Source: Megasphaera sp. NM10 (GTDB taxonomy: Bacteria; Bacillota; Negativicutes; Veillonellales; Megasphaeraceae). From it: a DNA stretch of 47,729 nucleotides. The position numbers and the translations under genes were made by a program. The notes under the pieces are model-generated. The model saw nothing but the letters and a program-made list of their open reading frames with translations. It ran no database searches and was not told where the DNA came from. The stretch spans positions 1-47,729 of the forward strand of contig NZ_APHY01000030.1 in the NCBI RefSeq assembly GCF_000417505.1, written 5' to 3'. Of the stretch, positions 1-11,852 are shown one piece after another; positions within the stretch are counted from its first letter, which is position 1; every line of letters starts with the position of its first letter.

Positions 1-534
1 TCAGTCTTTCGTCCACATCCGGTACCCTACGGGAACCGCCAGATAACGGATAAGCGGAGCTTTTCCTTCATGCTGGTTCAGGACAGGGACACTCAGTGTC
101 AAACTGACGAAGCAATGACCATTTACGTAAGGCTTGCCTGTATGGCAGGCATGGTCATGCAACAGAGAAACAGCATCGAACTTCTTGCCGAATTTCGGTA
201 CCGTCGTATCATCGACACTGAGAAAGACCGGTTCATTCTGTAAGGCCGCCGGAATCAGGCTGCAAGCCAATTCCGCTGTTTGCAGGCGGAGAGAACGGCT
301 CGTCACCGTTTCGTTCTGAAGCGCCCGGTAATAACTATTTAAGCAGCGATGCGTCACCTGGGACAAGAAATTCCGATGAAGAAAGCGAAGAGACGGGAAG
401 GCCTGCAAGGCTACCTGAGCGATGACCAACCAGGTCAGTAGGAATCGCGTTGGCCGTGTCGCCGTAGAAAAATATGTAGAAAAGAAACGAAACAGGCTAC
501 CAATAATCGAATTTTCGAGGTATAATGAAATCAT
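1..534 (-). CDS. DDE-type transposase, 5' portion (177 aa)
   Basis: The reading frame starts at an ATG (532-534) preceded by AAAGGAG and ends at a stop codon lying exactly on the window edge. The protein carries a VDDTTVPKFGKK segment at about residues 105-116 that fits the first aspartate of a DDE transposase, followed by HDHA and NGHCFVSL, as in IS4/IS701-like enzymes. Such transposases are normally 350-450 residues, so 177 residues is only the N-terminal half. The remaining DDE acidic residues are not in this frame. Either the gene is truncated or frameshifted, or the rest lies outside the window in another frame. The IS family cannot be fixed from this fragment. It lies downstream of, and in the same direction as, the radical SAM accessory operon. 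Confidence 0.75.
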   Translation of the reverse strand: MISLYLENSIIGSLFRFFSTYFSTATRPTRFLLTWLVIAQVALQAFPSLRFLHRNFLSQVTHRCLNSYYRALQNETVTSRSLRLQTAELACSLIPAALQNEPVFLSVDDTTVPKFGKKFDAVSLLHDHACHTGKPYVNGHCFVSLTLSVPVLNQHEGKAPLIRYLAVPVGYRMWTKD

Positions 535-600
535 CGCGTAACTCCTTTGGAATGATGTTTTTGAGCAGATTCATTATACTTCAAAGTGTGGTTACGCGAT
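533..600. repeat. 10-bp inverted repeat flanking the transposase 5' leader
   Basis: ATCGCGTAAC at 533-542 and GTTACGCGAT at 591-600 are perfect inverted copies 48 bases apart, enclosing the leader of the transposase gene. The inner copy overlaps the start codon and spacer behind the ribosome binding site. This could be a regulatory operator or hairpin, or the outer copy could mark one end of the insertion sequence. The other end is not visible, so neither reading is proven. Confidence 0.4.
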
Positions 601-719
601 ATTTATTTGTTCAAAAAGTTGTAAACTGCTGATTATTAGTTCAGTATAGCAGAAAACAAGGAAACTTCCAAAAGAATTGATGTAATATGGAATTTTGAAT
701 ATACGAATACATAGTAGTA

Positions 720-1247
720 TTATTTAAAACGTAAAATCTGATATTTCAATCCATTAAACCATACGATATCGTTCGCATGGGCCTGACTGCAAACATTTGC
801 AAATGTCGTAGGCGTTCTTGTTCCCGGCTTTTCTAAATAAAAAGTTTTTTGAATATTCTCACCGTTATTGTGAATTTCTAAAACAACCACGGCCTTACAA
901 GCTCCCCAATGTTTCTTAATGCCTGACGGGTGCTTCTGCTGTCCTTTCTTATTCTTCTTATGACTGCTATGGCTTCCTACGGACATATTCGCCATTTCCT
1001 TTTGAATCATCATTTGTTTCTGTATTTTATAGTCCTTTTCAGAAATAGGTTTCCCATATTCGTAATATCCGCATTGGCCAGGCCTGCATCTGACAGAAAA
1101 ATCCGGAGCTACTATATTACAGCAACATTTTTTATCCATATCATAAAATTTACATGTTTCTTTTCTACGTCCTGGAGTATACATATTAGGCTCATATTCA
1201 ACATGCCAATTTCCTTCCAGCCTTCCCTTAGGATGCCGATTACTCAT
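720..1247 (-). CDS. Cys-rich protein of unknown family (175 aa)
   Basis: I do not recognise this protein. It starts at an ATG with AGGAG eight bases upstream and lies only 6 bases after the Sel1-repeat gene, so it is the third gene of that operon. The N-terminal third is cysteine rich: C32, C41, C42, C43, C54 and C59, with a CRPGQCGYYEYGKP segment, an arrangement that could bind zinc or an iron-sulfur cluster. Residues about 70-105 are polar and Lys/Gln/Met rich, probably a linker. Residues about 112-175 look like a compact beta-rich domain ending in DIVWFNGLKYQILRFK. There is no signal peptide or membrane segment. Its position beside a radical SAM gene makes it a candidate substrate or partner, which is inference only. 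The AT-rich codon use differs from the GC-rich core genes and suggests transfer. Confidence 0.7.
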   Translation of the reverse strand: MSNRHPKGRLEGNWHVEYEPNMYTPGRRKETCKFYDMDKKCCCNIVAPDFSVRCRPGQCGYYEYGKPISEKDYKIQKQMMIQKEMANMSVGSHSSHKKNKKGQQKHPSGIKKHWGACKAVVVLEIHNNGENIQKTFYLEKPGTRTPTTFANVCSQAHANDIVWFNGLKYQILRFK

Positions 1248-1253
1248 AAAATA

Positions 1254-2639
1254 TCACTCCTCTTCTTTATACAATTTCATCAGATGAAATTTTTGATCCG
1301 CATATTTTTTGGGGTAAAGAAGTAAAAATTTTTTTATTGCCTGTTGTGACACATGTATTTTGTATAATCGAACGGACCTTGAGGATGCATACTCTCTCAG
1401 TGTTTCTAAATCGGCTTCCGTCAGGCCTGGAAGCAGTGGTGCATTTTCCAGTGACAGATAGTAGTATAAATCACTATCTACATAGATATAGTACTGCTTT
1501 AAGATGTTTGTGATATGTTCAGGCAATATTGTAAAATCGATATCGCCACAAAAGTTTGTAAGTAAGTCGACATACTGCTCACTTGGGGTAAGTGATTTTA
1601 GTTTCACTGGCTTAACGGTCACATCTGGCTCATGGGAAATAAGCTTGAAAAATGGATACGTACAGTCTGGTTGTTTCTGGGCCAATTTCGTTAGTTTGCG
1701 GAGCGCTTTTTCACAAGCCGGACAGGTACCGGAACAGGGCGTTTTCTGAGGGCAGTCTGGTTCGCTCCAGGAAATGTGGTTGGCAGCGGCAAATCGAGCC
1801 CGTAGTGCTCGTAATGTACGGCAGATATCCTTACCATCGGAACGTACTGGCTGTTTCTGGATACTCTTTTTTGTGTAAATTGTTTCTTCGAAACTCGCTG
1901 GGTCAAATACATCTATAATACCCATTGTTGCATATGTTTCAGTACTTGCTTCGTGGTATTTCTTTTTATAGATAGCGGCCATGTGGAGATTCACCGGTAC
2001 AGCAATCCCTTCGCTATAGCATCGGCTTAGGGCAGCAAATGCCAGACATTGTCCGGCATCAGCGGCCTTCATATACCAACGGAAAGCGGCTTTTTCATCT
2101 TGTTCGACGGACAGCCCCCGTTCGAGACAAACTCCCCAAACGAAGGAATAGTAAACATCATCACTTAATGCCTTCTGCTTTATAAACTGAATGACAGGAA
2201 GAGTGGCATCCATGCCGGCAGTGTAGCGTTTCAGAAATTCCCGTGCAAACGGCTGTACCTCTTGCCGATACGACCGTTTAAAAGCTTTCTTAAACCAGTA
2301 TATGCTGCCAGGGCAGTTCCGGATTCCCTTCTCAATCCAGCCCGCCTGGGCCAGATATAATCCGAGGATAAGTGGATCTGCATCATCATAATCGTAATAA
2401 GATGAATTCCATGACTCAAGTTTCCAATAGTAGTGATAGTGTTTTATTTGATTCACCAGATAATGACAATGCTGATTTCCTGCTTGAGCGGCTCTCTTAA
2501 AATAGAAACAGGCTCTTTTTAAATCCGGAATACACCCTAAGCCTAAAAAATAGGCATACCCTTTTTGAATCCAGTTTTGTATAGCACTATTTTGAATATT
2601 GGAAAAGTTTTTTAACTCATATGGATGGGCATCTTTCAT
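1254..2639 (-). CDS. Sel1-repeat protein with CX5CX3CX2C motif (461 aa)
   Basis: This is a cytoplasmic helical-repeat protein. Residues about 27-62 and 167-214 match Sel1-like (TPR-related) repeats; the clearest stretch is AAFRWYMKAADAGQ followed by ALSRCYSEGI. A second part, residues about 272-320, has an arginine-rich helix and four cysteines at 296, 302, 306 and 309 around GTCPACE. From memory, similar GTCPxCE modules occur next to small radical SAM proteins in gut bacteria; this was not searched. The C-terminal 130 residues are not recognised. The ATG start overlaps the stop of the upstream radical SAM gene by 4 bases (ATGA), so the two are translationally coupled. Sel1 repeats usually mediate protein contacts, so it may be a scaffold or substrate of the radical SAM enzyme. 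The gene is AT rich compared with the core genome around it. Confidence 0.75.
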   Translation of the reverse strand: MKDAHPYELKNFSNIQNSAIQNWIQKGYAYFLGLGCIPDLKRACFYFKRAAQAGNQHCHYLVNQIKHYHYYWKLESWNSSYYDYDDADPLILGLYLAQAGWIEKGIRNCPGSIYWFKKAFKRSYRQEVQPFAREFLKRYTAGMDATLPVIQFIKQKALSDDVYYSFVWGVCLERGLSVEQDEKAAFRWYMKAADAGQCLAFAALSRCYSEGIAVPVNLHMAAIYKKKYHEASTETYATMGIIDVFDPASFEETIYTKKSIQKQPVRSDGKDICRTLRALRARFAAANHISWSEPDCPQKTPCSGTCPACEKALRKLTKLAQKQPDCTYPFFKLISHEPDVTVKPVKLKSLTPSEQYVDLLTNFCGDIDFTILPEHITNILKQYYIYVDSDLYYYLSLENAPLLPGLTEADLETLREYASSRSVRLYKIHVSQQAIKKFLLLYPKKYADQKFHLMKLYKEEE

Positions 2640-3280
2640 TCTGTCGTCCCCTCCCTCTTTTCTGGTGGCTTCCGATAGGAAAAAACTTCAATATGCTTTA
2701 CATAGGGTTGGAGCCTGCGGACGCTTTTCTGGATATCGCGATTTGTATTATATCCCGGGATACGGGGAACCCGGACCCATATAGAATCCTGCCCATAGGG
2801 AGCATGTTGTACAAGATACATCAGATTGTTCCACATAAGGTCCATCTGCCCATGAGTATACCGGTAATAAACATCAGGATTCAAATCTTTGATGTCGATG
2901 ATCCACAATGAAATATAAGGCAGCAATTCCTGTACGTTCTTTATGGATGCCTGCAATGATGTCTCGATACGGAGAGGGATATCTGGCAGTGTTTTTTGAC
3001 TATACAAAGCACATTCTTTGACAAAATACTCTTGGCCCAGCGGCTCACCACCGCCGAAGACGATGCCCCCACCTGTCATACGCATATACAGCTCATCCCG
3101 TCTGACAAAATCAATCAGTTCACGAGCACTATAATCAGGCCACTGACTACGATCAGTATGACAAATAGGATTCGGACAATACTGACAATTTAAGGGACAG
3201 CCGGAAAAACCAATGAGGGTGGATATACCAGGGCCATCTGTTGCCATCCTGAACCGTGAAATGGAGAAAATACCTGACAT
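2636..3280 (-). CDS. Small radical SAM protein, NrdG/PFL-activase-like (214 aa)
   Basis: The N-terminus reads DGPGISTLIGFSGCPLNCQYC, the classic CX3CX2C site (C28, C32, C35) for the SAM-binding 4Fe-4S cluster. GGGIVFGGGEPLGQ follows, the GGE motif that contacts SAM. DGPG, and a later RIETSLQAS segment, place it near glycyl-radical-enzyme activases, but at 214 residues it lacks the extra two-cluster ferredoxin insert and no glycyl radical enzyme is adjacent. The ATG at 3278-3280 has AGGAGGT seven bases upstream; an earlier in-frame ATG at 3298 has no proper site. It leads the three-gene operon behind a strong promoter. A role in modifying one of the two downstream proteins, or making a peptide radical, is inference. 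Confidence 0.85.
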   Translation of the reverse strand: MSGIFSISRFRMATDGPGISTLIGFSGCPLNCQYCPNPICHTDRSQWPDYSARELIDFVRRDELYMRMTGGGIVFGGGEPLGQEYFVKECALYSQKTLPDIPLRIETSLQASIKNVQELLPYISLWIIDIKDLNPDVYYRYTHGQMDLMWNNLMYLVQHAPYGQDSIWVRVPRIPGYNTNRDIQKSVRRLQPYVKHIEVFSYRKPPEKREGTTE

Positions 3281-3388
3281 CTGTCTACCTCCTGTCATTC
3301 ATTGTCAATCTGCTAGGCGGACCTTCTTCCTTGGGAACGAAGGAGACGCTATATTTTTATGTTAATCCGGGTTACTCTAACTATGAGT

Positions 3389-3417
3389 ATTATAGCATGA
3401 ACGATTTTGTATAGCAA
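3389..3417 (-). promoter_or_regulatory. Sigma-70-type promoter of the radical SAM operon
   Basis: On the minus strand TTGCTA (3412-3417) is followed after 17 bases by a perfect TATAAT (3389-3394). Transcription would start near 3382, leaving a leader of about 100 bases before the start codon at 3280. Confidence 0.75.
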
Positions 3418-3486
3418 AAATGGAGTATCTAGGACGGTGCCAACATATTATGGGAATTTCTTGAATAAGAAAAAGGTCTTTGAAAC

Positions 3487-3516
3487 TTGACAATAATCCA
3501 TAGTCCATGCTATAAT
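3487..3516 (+). promoter_or_regulatory. Consensus promoter of tRNA-Ala
   Basis: TTGACA (3487-3492) and TATAAT (3511-3516) are both perfect, 18 bases apart, 21 bases before the mature tRNA 5' end. Confidence 0.85.
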
Positions 3517-3536
3517 GTTTTCCGTACCAGACACAT

Positions 3537-3612
<76 letters not shown>

Positions 3613-3624
3613 TAAAGAATCTGA

Positions 3625-3660
3625 TAACCACGCGGTTTATGAGCCGCGTGGTTATTTTTT
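3625..3660 (+). terminator. Intrinsic terminator of tRNA-Ala
   Basis: An 11-bp perfect stem (TAACCACGCGG / CCGCGTGGTTA) with an 8-base loop is followed by a run of six T. Confidence 0.9.
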
Positions 3661-3703
3661 ATTACATGAAAAATCGAAGAAGGTTAGCACTAGGGTTAGC
3701 AAT

Positions 3704-3746
3704 AAAAAAAACGACAGTAACCAGCAACAGGAACTGTCGTTTTTTT
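3704..3746. terminator. Bidirectional A/T-flanked hairpin terminator
   Basis: ACGACAGT (3711-3718) pairs with ACTGTCGT (3733-3740) and is flanked by runs of eight A and seven T. It can stop transcripts in both directions; on the minus strand it would end the flavodoxin transcript. Confidence 0.75.
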
Positions 3747-3762
3747 ATTCATTCTTTAAGGA

Positions 3763-3808
3763 AAAGGGACCGCGCATGGCAGCAAAAGTGCTATGCGACG
3801 GTCCCTTT
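3763..3808. terminator. Long hairpin downstream of the flavodoxin gene
   Basis: AAAGGGACCG (3763-3772) pairs with CGGTCCCTTT (3799-3808), and an inner GCGCATGGC/GCTATGCG extends the stem. The GCATG/ATGCGAC core is shared with other hairpins in the window. The T run on the minus strand is short, so termination strength is uncertain. Confidence 0.55.
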
Positions 3809-3849
3809 GCATCTGACTATGTTACCGGAGTGGGATTCTGGTAAACGAA

Positions 3850-4305
3850 TCAGGCAACCTTATCTGTTTGGGTACGGTAATAGGTGTTTTCGGCAAAGTC
3901 TTTGACCGATTCTACGTCGATCAATTCGTTTTCTCCCAACGGTGTCTTAGCCATGGCTTCGGCCACGTAATTGACGTGGGTCCCGGCGACCCATACGCCG
4001 CTGGGCAGGAGTTCGACGGCGCTGCGCAGGTTCTTCGAGATGTCGTCGGAGAAGAGGTCGCGGTGCATGATGGCAAAGAGGGCGACTTTTCCGGCTTTGA
4101 GCCGCGGCAGGACGGCTTGGGAGACGTTATCTAATTTCAGGTTCAGGAACCAGACGCCGGCAAAGACGATATCGTAATCGTCAAAGTTTTCCGGGGCTTG
4201 TTCCATGGGCAGGAAGTCCGTATCTTTCGGCAGGACCGAACGGATGGCTTCGGCTAATTTTTTGACTCTACCTGTCTGTGAGGAATACAATACCAGTGCT
4301 TTCAT
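3850..4305 (-). CDS. Flavodoxin-family protein (151 aa)
   Basis: A short single-domain flavodoxin that would bind FMN and carry electrons in the cytoplasm. The N-terminal KALVLYSSQTGRVKKLAEAI matches the flavodoxin strand-phosphate-loop signature, with SSQTG at residues 8-12. YDIVFAGVWF and ALFAIMHRD fit the isoalloxazine-binding loops. I start it at the ATG at 4303-4305, with AGGAG 10 bases upstream; a GTG at 4312-4314 sits almost on the binding site and is unlikely. A second flavodoxin of very similar layout lies at 43072-43521, and both share an LRSAVELL segment. The redox partner is unknown. It follows the pyruvate kinase gene in the same direction, with a palindrome between them. Confidence 0.85.
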   Translation of the reverse strand: MKALVLYSSQTGRVKKLAEAIRSVLPKDTDFLPMEQAPENFDDYDIVFAGVWFLNLKLDNVSQAVLPRLKAGKVALFAIMHRDLFSDDISKNLRSAVELLPSGVWVAGTHVNYVAEAMAKTPLGENELIDVESVKDFAENTYYRTQTDKVA

Positions 4306-10796: not shown

Positions 10797-11852
10797 TTAT
10801 ATCATAGTAGGCCCGGTTTTGCTATTCACATCGAGGTCATACACAGTCCGGCCCTGGCAGACACGGATATGACCAAGGGGTACCTCATCCTGATGCCAGA
10901 TCAGGTGCTGAGGCAGGCTCCAGCGGGCCGTCTTGACGGTAACGTTGCGATAGCCCCGGACGCGGGACGTATCGCGCCGGTTATAGCCGATGGTGATTGC
11001 CGGTTCATCGGGCAGGCTGCGGAGGAAGGACAGGAGCTGCCGACCATAGCGGCGAGTATCGACTAATTCGCCCATAGCCGGCGTGTAGGCCCCGGCCAGG
11101 ACCTGCGTGTCGTCGTCGAGGTCTTCCGTGGCTTGCAGGCCCGTCCGGATGCAATTTATGCCCTGTTCCAGGAAGTGCTGCTTCATGTAGGCCGCCCGGA
11201 CGACGCCTTCATGGATGGTCAAGGGCTGGTAGCGGCCGGCCCGCCAGCTGGCAGCCAGGTCCGTCCCGGCGAGGACGGCGACGGGATAGATACGGGCCAG
11301 GTCCGGCTGGAGCTGGCAGATAGCCGCCGTGGTCCGGACCAGGCTCGGCCAGTCTTCACCGGGCAGGCCGGGCATGAGCTGATGGCCGACGGTGAAGCCG
11401 TACTGCCGCAGGAGAGCCGTCGCCGCCACGACATCCCCTGACGTATGGCCCCGCCGGGCCTGCTCGAGGACGGTATCGTCCATGGACTGGACGCCCAGTT
11501 CGACGCAGGTCATGCCGTACTGCTGCAGGCGCTGCAATATCTCCGGCGTAATGCAGTCCGGCCGGGTCGAACAGCGGATGGCGTCAATCGTACCGGCCTC
11601 CAAGGCTTCGTAAGCCGGCTGCAGAAGGCCTTCCTGTACCTCCCCGGGCATGGCCGTGAAACTGCCGCCGTAGAAAGCCACTTCCCAGTGGCGCGGCGTC
11701 CGGGCCGACGCCGTATAGGACGCAATGAGACGACGCACCTCATCGGGCGACGGCAGGCCCTGATGTCCCGTAATCTGCCACTGATTACAGAAGACACAGC
11801 GGTGGGGACAGCCGATATGGGGAATGAAAATAGGGATGATAGACGTTTGCAT
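10797..11852 (-). CDS. Elp3-like radical SAM protein (351 aa)
   Basis: Starts FIPHIGCPHRCVFCNQ, a CX3CX2C radical SAM cluster site (C15, C19, C22), followed by AFYGGSFTAMP (the GGE-equivalent) and CVELGVQSMDD. This is the Elp3/COG1243 subgroup, but without the acetyltransferase domain of true Elp3. Its role is unknown. In other Firmicutes a relative sits immediately downstream of rnc and upstream of smc, and here too it follows rnc, though separated by a terminator and a repeat. ATG start with GGGAGG upstream. The stop lies 65 bases before the carboxyltransferase start. A link to RNA or tRNA modification is plausible by family, not shown here. Confidence 0.82.
   Translation of the reverse strand: MQTSIIPIFIPHIGCPHRCVFCNQWQITGHQGLPSPDEVRRLIASYTASARTPRHWEVAFYGGSFTAMPGEVQEGLLQPAYEALEAGTIDAIRCSTRPDCITPEILQRLQQYGMTCVELGVQSMDDTVLEQARRGHTSGDVVAATALLRQYGFTVGHQLMPGLPGEDWPSLVRTTAAICQLQPDLARIYPVAVLAGTDLAASWRAGRYQPLTIHEGVVRAAYMKQHFLEQGINCIRTGLQATEDLDDDTQVLAGAYTPAMGELVDTRRYGRQLLSFLRSLPDEPAITIGYNRRDTSRVRGYRNVTVKTARWSLPQHLIWHQDEVPLGHIRVCQGRTVYDLDVNSKTGPTMI

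Follow-up and report, generated by a model that had tools for sequence, protein, structure and literature searches.

Which protein does a small activase-like radical S-adenosylmethionine (SAM) enzyme act upon when no glycyl radical enzyme is encoded alongside it? The question is raised by a three-gene operon at positions 720 to 3298 of a 47,729-nucleotide stretch of Megasphaera sp. NM10 (hereafter the window), which constitutes one entire contig (NZ_APHY01000030.1) of a 2.6-Mb draft genome. All three open reading frames (ORFs) lie on the minus strand, a detail absent from an earlier sequence-only reading of this DNA, which had otherwise placed them correctly: the radical SAM gene comes first (3298..2636, 220 amino acids), followed by the gene of a Sel1-repeat protein (2639..1254, 461 amino acids) with an ATGA overlap and, after a gap of 6 bases, by that of a cysteine-rich protein (1247..720, 175 amino acids), overlap and gap both being borne out by the ORF coordinates. 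That reading had proposed an undescribed modification system carried on accessory DNA, with one or both downstream proteins as substrate or scaffold. The core of the proposal is upheld here for the radical SAM and Sel1 genes and not for the third gene: the enzyme gene recurs beside a distinctive tag that the Sel1-repeat protein also bears, and the pair constitutes a widespread, apparently unnamed system of gut bacteria.

Recurrence of the enzyme gene with a five-cysteine tag

The tag is a domain of about 60 amino acids with five cysteines (short form GKxxC...C...G.C.GTCPxC), here designated the GTCP tag, which the sequence-only reading had missed. In the window it occupies residues ~267-326 of the Sel1-repeat protein (1662..1841, minus strand; DGKDICRTLRALRARFAAANHISWSEPDCPQKTPCSGTCPACE...), and was matched at 78.5 bits by the locus profile and at 80.7 bits in the genome search, the window tag itself being among the rows of both profiles. 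Alignment of 93 tag domains, inclusive of those from the window, L007, L008 and L039 (L and G numbers denote loci and genomes), gave the consensus GKxxCxxLKxxRxxxAxxNxI...C...GxCxGTCPxC(E/D)xE. The cysteines are kept in nearly all of the 93 (C15 in 92, C38 in 90, C44 in 88, C48 in 92 and C51 in 91), as are G11 (92), L18 (93), R22 (92), A26 (92), N29 (91), I31 (92), G46 (92) and T47 (88). No Pfam or NCBIfam family listed for the scanned proteins models this segment.

When the Sel1-repeat protein was searched against the order, one match covered residues 260-330, outside the Sel1 repeats; it came from G023, where a 109-amino-acid protein with the tag segment is encoded directly upstream of a homologue of the radical SAM enzyme. 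Two contigs filed as phage, which were found through the radical SAM protein and look Bacteroidota-like from their TonB-type genes, carry the tag segment in one or more genes adjoining the enzyme gene, and a viral scan with the single radical SAM protein gave one stretch that fitted a pattern and zero confirmed relatives. A genome scan with an alignment of four radical SAM proteins confirmed at least 465 relatives, of which the best 80, from Bacteroidota and Bacillota, were kept as loci; these are the nearest to the window enzyme rather than an even sample. The tag profile matched in 71 of the 80, with the nearest tag ORF at most 467 bases from the radical SAM match, on the opposite strand in two loci (L095, L106), and more than one tag ORF was present in 12.

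Within the class the pair is sparse. Among 300 Negativicutes genomes the tag was found in 5, the window genome included, each time adjoining a radical SAM gene of the family; six Negativicutes enzyme rows exceeded 150 bits, of which five had the tag, and the sixth (G164) matches positions 2-152 of 199 only and has, by eye, a transposase-like ORF nearby. Among 41 Bacteroidaceae genomes, a set which includes the chosen centre G313, the tag occurred in 5 and near the enzyme gene in 4 of these (about 25 bases away in three, about 515 in one), and all 4 enzyme rows below E 1e-80 had a tag nearby. Recurrence in two phyla, together with sparse occurrence in the class, agrees with an undescribed modification system carried on accessory DNA, in which the Sel1-repeat protein may be the substrate or scaffold.

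The tag is attached to unrelated cargo, inclusive of lipoprotein-like proteins. That of the window matches Pfam Sel1 at E 1.8e-14 with the best-scoring stretch at residues 27-55, and many Sel1-type proteins from the order align to a Sel1-repeat region at residues ~152-228 (1954..2185, minus strand). Pfam scanning covered 81 tagged proteins, namely that of the window and 80 of 87 partner ORFs, with five radical SAM fusions, L050:7815-7985 and L077:5817-5945 left out; it gave TonB_C in 34, CarboxypepD_reg in 11, serpin in 3, tubulin/FtsZ in 2, and Sel1, HIRAN, DUF6273 and PEGA in one each. In Bacillota the tag usually sits on the C-terminal side of the cargo; most Bacteroidota partners carry it at the N-terminus, ahead of a hydrophobic segment. 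Such segments, called by simple hydropathy criteria rather than SignalP, follow the tag in 64 of 91 tagged ORFs; 49 of them have a lipobox-like end, and some of the others end, by eye, in AxA-like sites.

Some of the Bacillota cargo resembles cell-division proteins. L122 and L121 match the FtsZ model TIGR00065 at E 2.9e-85 and 2.4e-42, both below its cut-off, and FtsZ-type proteins with a C-terminal tag adjoin the enzyme gene in L122:1438-2844 (-), L061 and L062, all from Selenomonas-type genomes, L121 being identical to L061. A further cargo family of Lachnospiraceae and Oscillospiraceae, with no Pfam name, often starts with M(R/K)(I/L)VITDTGxIWN (L051, L058-L060, L063, L067, L069, L071-L073, L083, L088). 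In the model of the L063 cargo (mean predicted local distance difference test, pLDDT, 73.9; predicted template-modelling score, pTM, 0.61) residues 1-205 and the tag are folded, and residues 206-257 between them fall below pLDDT 50. Since the best 50 Foldseek matches shown for this model are all FtsZ/CetZ entries (best E 1.5e-5, TM 0.41), the common Bacillota cargo is probably a diverged tubulin-type protein.

Other features of the loci were observed alongside. Three serpin-domain members were assigned by reading, the Pfam count not having identified serpins individually: L081:4401-5831, L087:6537-8036 and L097:6582-8048 have the tag at the N-terminus and abundant MG/LG-P motifs in their linkers. 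The 37 neighbour proteins scanned from Bacillota loci (L051, L062, L063 and others) include three RlaP-type nucleotidyltransferases, two ADP-ribosylglycohydrolases and one macro domain. No named exporter or leader peptidase of ribosomally synthesized and post-translationally modified peptides (RiPPs) was among the 25 of 33 families listed for these 37 proteins, the Bacteroidota loci not having been scanned.

Kinship of the enzyme with glycyl-radical activases

The window enzyme matches Pfam Radical_SAM at E 2.8e-10, and the Pfam scan of its 220 residues gave no SPASM/twitch domain. Its best NCBIfam match is the glycyl-radical-enzyme activase model TIGR02494 (123.9 bits against a cut-off of 174.35), with 96.2 bits against 231.75 for TIGR02493, and it falls below every curated NCBIfam cut-off shown. 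Of the earlier label "NrdG/pyruvate formate-lyase (PFL)-activase-like", the NrdG part is not borne out, as the NrdG model yields only 22.8 bits against its cut-off of 126.1. The cluster motif CX3CX2C reads CPLNCQYC, of the PFL-activase type. All 81 family rows retain its three cysteines and the GGE motif, an invariance that is partly due to selection because the genome-scan patterns spanned those stretches. Asp16 and Asn38 of the PFL-activating enzyme contact the substrate glycine (PMC9326890). D21 and N43 of the window enzyme align with these residues, and each is invariant in all 81 rows, neither having been part of the scan patterns; where the PFL enzyme has DGPGIR, the window enzyme has DGPGIS.

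In a maximum-likelihood tree of 94 rows, the 86 family enzymes (window included) stand apart from eight activase/NrdG-like rows with support of 97/97 in a midpoint-rooted tree whose NrdG outgroup row is very long-branched and whose bootstrap had not settled; the window enzyme groups with that of G023. As the sequence-only reading had stated, no glycyl radical enzyme lies within the operon. The window genome encodes a separate NrdG (168.4 bits) beside an NrdD (395.5 bits), both above cut-offs, on contig C56, which speaks against the window enzyme being a housekeeping NrdG with NrdD as its partner. A separate activase above cut-off (TIGR02494, 245.2 bits) adjoins a glycyl radical enzyme whose best match is hydroxyproline dehydratase (600.3/1100 bits, clipped at the locus end). 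Both pairs lie on contigs other than that of the operon; they came from a radical SAM search, and further ones may exist in the window genome.

Enzyme and tag also occur fused. The tag sits at the C-terminus of the radical SAM protein in L085, L093, L100 and L114, and cargo, tag and enzyme form a single ORF in L058. In L085, L093 and L100 the gene after the fusion encodes a tag-less peptide (74, 92 and 71 amino acids, respectively) with three glycine motifs each, which in L100 are FIEGILPP, PLEGLIEE and GLIGDIDLPEDD; the L114 locus ends two bases past the fusion gene, so that the next gene is out of view. This arrangement is the expected one for a tag that serves in docking and a glycine stretch that acts as substrate. 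The L100 fusion was modelled with confidence (mean pLDDT 93.5, pTM 0.91), suggestive of a tag packed against the enzyme barrel, and the closest solved structure is that of a peptide complex of the PFL-activating enzyme (3cb8; Z 24.2, 202 residues, root-mean-square deviation 2.4).

The linker glycine, a proposed mechanism and its rivals

A recurring glycine in the linkers was first seen by eye. De novo searching of 64 non-redundant linkers (73 before redundancy filtering) gave the motif (L/T)-(E/M/L/Q)-G-(D/E/M)-(V/I)-x with a score of 165.4 against 75.2-82.6 in five shuffles and sites in 57 of the 64. In a narrowed run of 57 linkers (64 before filtering), from which the carboxypeptidase-regulatory-type loci L048, L077, L099, L102, L108 and L118 had been removed, the score of (L/T)-x-G-(D/E/M)-(V/I) was 154.6 against 79.3-85.2 in eight natural-protein control sets, with sites in 49 linkers; L008 and the enzyme-tag fusions were excluded from both runs. 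Among the Bacillota partners, 13 with a tag anchor and one without were scored, and ten reached 5 or more, with a glycine-to-tag distance of 26 residues in five, 23-32 in four and 44 in one. For the window, motif search and spacing point to TMGIID (Gly240; 1911..1928, minus strand), 28 residues N-terminal of the tag, as the candidate target. Judged by sequence, the family as a whole combines a conserved putative recognition region with variable cargo bearing a conserved, short candidate target motif, as in RiPP-like systems, and the window protein by itself displays this pattern weakly.

Glycyl-radical-enzyme activases take a hydrogen off a backbone glycine of their partner protein. It can be proposed that the partner of the present enzyme would be a cargo protein bearing the GTCP tag rather than a glycyl radical enzyme. 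Co-location, the fusions and the confident fusion model point to docking of the tag on the enzyme barrel, and direct binding in trans is what we infer from them. Docking may then present to the active site a flexible linker with (L/T)-x-G-(D/E/M/I)-(V/I)-x, for which the motif and the predicted disordered linker of one modelled relative (L063) were observed. The enzyme would abstract the C-alpha hydrogen of the motif glycine, a target that we infer from its kinship and conserved anchoring residues, and might leave behind a radical, a cleavage or a cross-link, the last perhaps involving a cysteine of the tag. Many Bacteroidota proteins have the tag ahead of a hydrophobic, signal-peptide-like segment; export would remove it there, and it would act as a leader. 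For the window, the cargo would be the Sel1-repeat protein, the tag its residues ~267-326 and the candidate glycine Gly240. That the tag docks cargo and an activase-type enzyme abstracts hydrogen from the motif glycine is, in our judgement, slightly favoured by the evidence. The wider statement, that a portable five-cysteine tag brings arbitrary proteins to an enzyme which radicalises a linker glycine, is tentative and is given somewhat less than even credence.

A number of observations weigh against this docking-and-glycine mechanism. The tag is missing from nine of the 80 loci (L054, L057, L091, L092, L101, L107, L113, L117, L120); in L092, L107 and L117 the enzyme gene begins at most 113 bases from the locus end, with the preceding gene out of view, and five of the nine genomes hold tag proteins elsewhere, but in the other four no tag was found anywhere at a threshold of E 1e-4. 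Conversely, G327 holds a tag and has no family enzyme at a threshold of E 1e-32. The counterparts of Asp16 and Asn38 may be common across activases and thus mark kinship rather than substrate. The window tag is internal and the enzyme gene comes first, unlike in the other Bacillota loci seen. L085, L093 and L100 form one clade (100/99), and their tag-less peptides therefore count as one event; the likeness of the peptide motifs was judged by eye, the six scored (those of L093 and L100, not of L085) reaching -5.2 to 3.7 on the matrix, and inspection by eye showed no similar peptide next to the six tag-less enzymes away from locus ends.

The motif itself has its own difficulties. CarboxypepD_reg domains contain a look-alike, for which those loci were left out of the narrowed run, and wider segments (69 after filtering) gave domain blocks, namely the TonB P-x-FPGG and the YFDF of Bacillota cargo, instead of the glycine motif, the segments being narrowed afterwards. 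In favour of the motif, 16 of 27 TonB contexts with a tag have a glycine 7-10 residues before the FPGG-type block, as against 1 of 23 without a tag, all contexts being distinct (Fisher p 4.9e-5), but this position rule was chosen after the contexts had been inspected. Of 19 held-out tagged rows, some of which are overlapping fragments of the same genes, five had p<0.05, which is above the one expected and far from all; likewise, three of 13 other Bacillota loci with a tag anchor score below 5. Against random natural segments the window motif gave weak p values of 0.032 and 0.05, the latter being the chance of its score in a random 70-residue segment, which becomes 0.018 with the distance inside 23-44. 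The case for the window therefore rests on the family rather than on its own score.

Two tagged loci touched by these exceptions were recorded as well. L187:1443-2618 (-), in G327, is a tagged protein that resembles the L096 cargo and has the glycine motifs LGDVAP and TEGMPVPPP. The genome of L057 (G301, Prevotella conceptionensis) holds six clustered tagged genes at C3:210005-213706, the L057 enzyme gene being without an adjoining tag.

Other explanations of the same loci have to be weighed. The tag could be a detached auxiliary iron-sulfur domain that serves electron transfer or substrate binding in the manner of SPASM/twitch, its attachment to cargo selecting that cargo. Auxiliary domains of radical SAM enzymes also sit C-terminal to the barrel, as does the tag in the four fused enzymes, and five near-invariant cysteines would suit such a role; we nevertheless regard it as somewhat unlikely, as the tag profile has no useful match to sequences of solved structures (best E 0.49) and the cysteine set is not strictly kept (C51 is absent from the G023 tag, L039, and C38 from those of L051 and L062). 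This explanation overlaps with the docking mechanism, which leaves the role of the cysteines unfixed. Alternatively, the tag itself could be the substrate, for instance through a thioether or a radical at the glycine of C-x-G-T-C, and the linker motif would be secondary. Being the most conserved element, with near-invariant glycine and cysteine residues, the tag invites this view, which is nonetheless unlikely: where a hydrophobic segment follows it, the tag would be lost on export, and its fusion to the enzyme, with a gene for a separate tag-less peptide coming next, is more in line with docking than with a product.

A sensor or scaffold role, in which the enzyme binds tagged proteins and steers their location or export with the linker left unmodified, would accommodate the export-looking and FtsZ-type cargo. 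It appears quite improbable, as a pure scaffold would need neither the cluster cysteines nor GGE, which are present throughout the 81 rows, even if partly through selection. Very improbable indeed is a plain activase that lies in this operon by chance and serves a glycyl radical enzyme of another locus; the closest named families would be in keeping with it, but the enzyme belongs to a separate clade, the neighbour conserved over two phyla is the tag protein, and each of the two glycyl radical enzymes detected in the genome, beyond which others may exist, adjoins an activase of its own.

The third gene, the genomic setting and known systems

The cysteine-rich protein does not share the recurrence of the pair, contrary to its earlier inclusion in the system. 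Of the 61 genomes searched from the order, two have its gene, one being the window genome, and the other copy (L040:8902-9510 in G016, of the same genus) is frameshifted, lies near a tRNA-Ala and has no detectable radical SAM or Sel1 gene within the 14 kb examined; G016 holds no family enzyme at E 1e-32. Pfam, NCBIfam, PHROGs and PADLOC gave nothing useful for the protein (best E 0.074), its best match among the ORFs of the 80 loci was a 68-amino-acid ORF on the opposite strand (E 0.0099), and a plasmid search returned no match. The separation of the three genes in relatives, which the sequence-only reading had named as telling against it, was hence found for this gene and not for the enzyme and Sel1 pair, and the most fitting view of the cysteine-rich gene is that of a local passenger or accessory outside the conserved pair. 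Two ideas about it were dropped: LEGNWH as a second target site, with a matrix score of -5.24, and common descent of the tRNA-Ala-side position in G016, where the tRNA lies in inverted orientation with respect to the gene.

The setting of the operon largely agrees with the earlier account. The four 1-kb bins over positions 1-4000 have a GC content of 0.397-0.446 against 0.488-0.625 beyond, with a single exception of 0.456, so that the region is indeed richer in AT than its surroundings. A transposase does lie beside it, in the form of an IS701-family fragment at the contig end (1..534, minus strand; NCBIfam E 3.6e-45), which is a mark of mobile DNA adjoining the operon and stands outside the system itself. 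The single good promoter claimed earlier exists as a site upstream of the radical SAM gene, TTGCTA-17-TATAAT (3389..3417, minus strand), a consensus match with 10 of 12 hexamer positions and a TG before the second hexamer; but it is only suggestive, because positions 1-4000 hold 15 such sites against 9.4 (standard deviation 2.9) in shuffles. Among defence systems, PADLOC gave only pVip for the enzyme (E 0.03), and no match for the Sel1-repeat and cysteine-rich proteins. Elsewhere in the window (10797-11852, minus strand) lies another gene for a radical SAM protein, which has a Radical_SAM_C domain.

With the PFL-activating enzyme and glycyl-radical activases, the family shares CX3CX2C, GGE, the D21/N43 pair and the fold, the last as modelled for the L100 fusion and not for the window protein. 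It differs from the activases of TIGR02493 and TIGR02494 in scores under the cut-offs, a separate clade and a tag protein as the usual neighbour, and in that the window operon has no glycyl radical enzyme and DGPGIS replaces DGPGIR. Radical SAM RiPP systems such as the spliceotides (PlpX/PlpY) and ranthipeptides are similar in combining a recognition part, a short target motif and a radical SAM enzyme. The spliceotide target motif is Xaa-Tyr-Gly, and PlpX contains SPASM and works with PlpY, a protein of the RiPP recognition element (RRE) type (PMC11002830). Here, instead, the enzyme is an activase-type barrel of ~205-220 residues, the five-cysteine tag is carried by cargo or enzyme and, unlike in spliceotides and ranthipeptides, large folded proteins often serve as cargo. 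DAG-RiPPs are described in a preprint as lipoproteins, peptides and proteins above 30 kDa modified by a non-heme iron enzyme (MNIO), some with a lipoprotein signal, recognised through a C-terminal motif and expected by the authors to be mostly leader-independent when lipidated (PMC12636315). The likeness lies in modified peptides and large proteins, some with a lipoprotein signal, and the difference in the radical SAM enzyme and the leader-like tag ahead of the signal segment.

No description of the tag or of the pair was found in titles and abstract openings of the open-access literature, where absence is not proof, and the system is therefore undescribed as far as that literature shows. Overall, the operon can be recast as a testable hypothesis of enzyme, tag and target motif, for which L100, with its 280-amino-acid enzyme-tag fusion and 71-amino-acid peptide, offers a small natural test pair. 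The family is present in cultured Bacteroides faecis, B. xylanisolvens, Prevotella corporis, a Butyrivibrio and a Selenomonas strain. Should the proposal hold, a transferable tag that steers radical chemistry to a chosen glycine could be useful as a tool, and the many tagged TonB-type and lipoprotein-like genes would gain a context. It would amount to a family of protein modification by radical SAM enzymes, so far undescribed, across many gut genera; glycyl-radical chemistry would then extend beyond glycyl radical enzymes, with the tag as its genetically transferable address.

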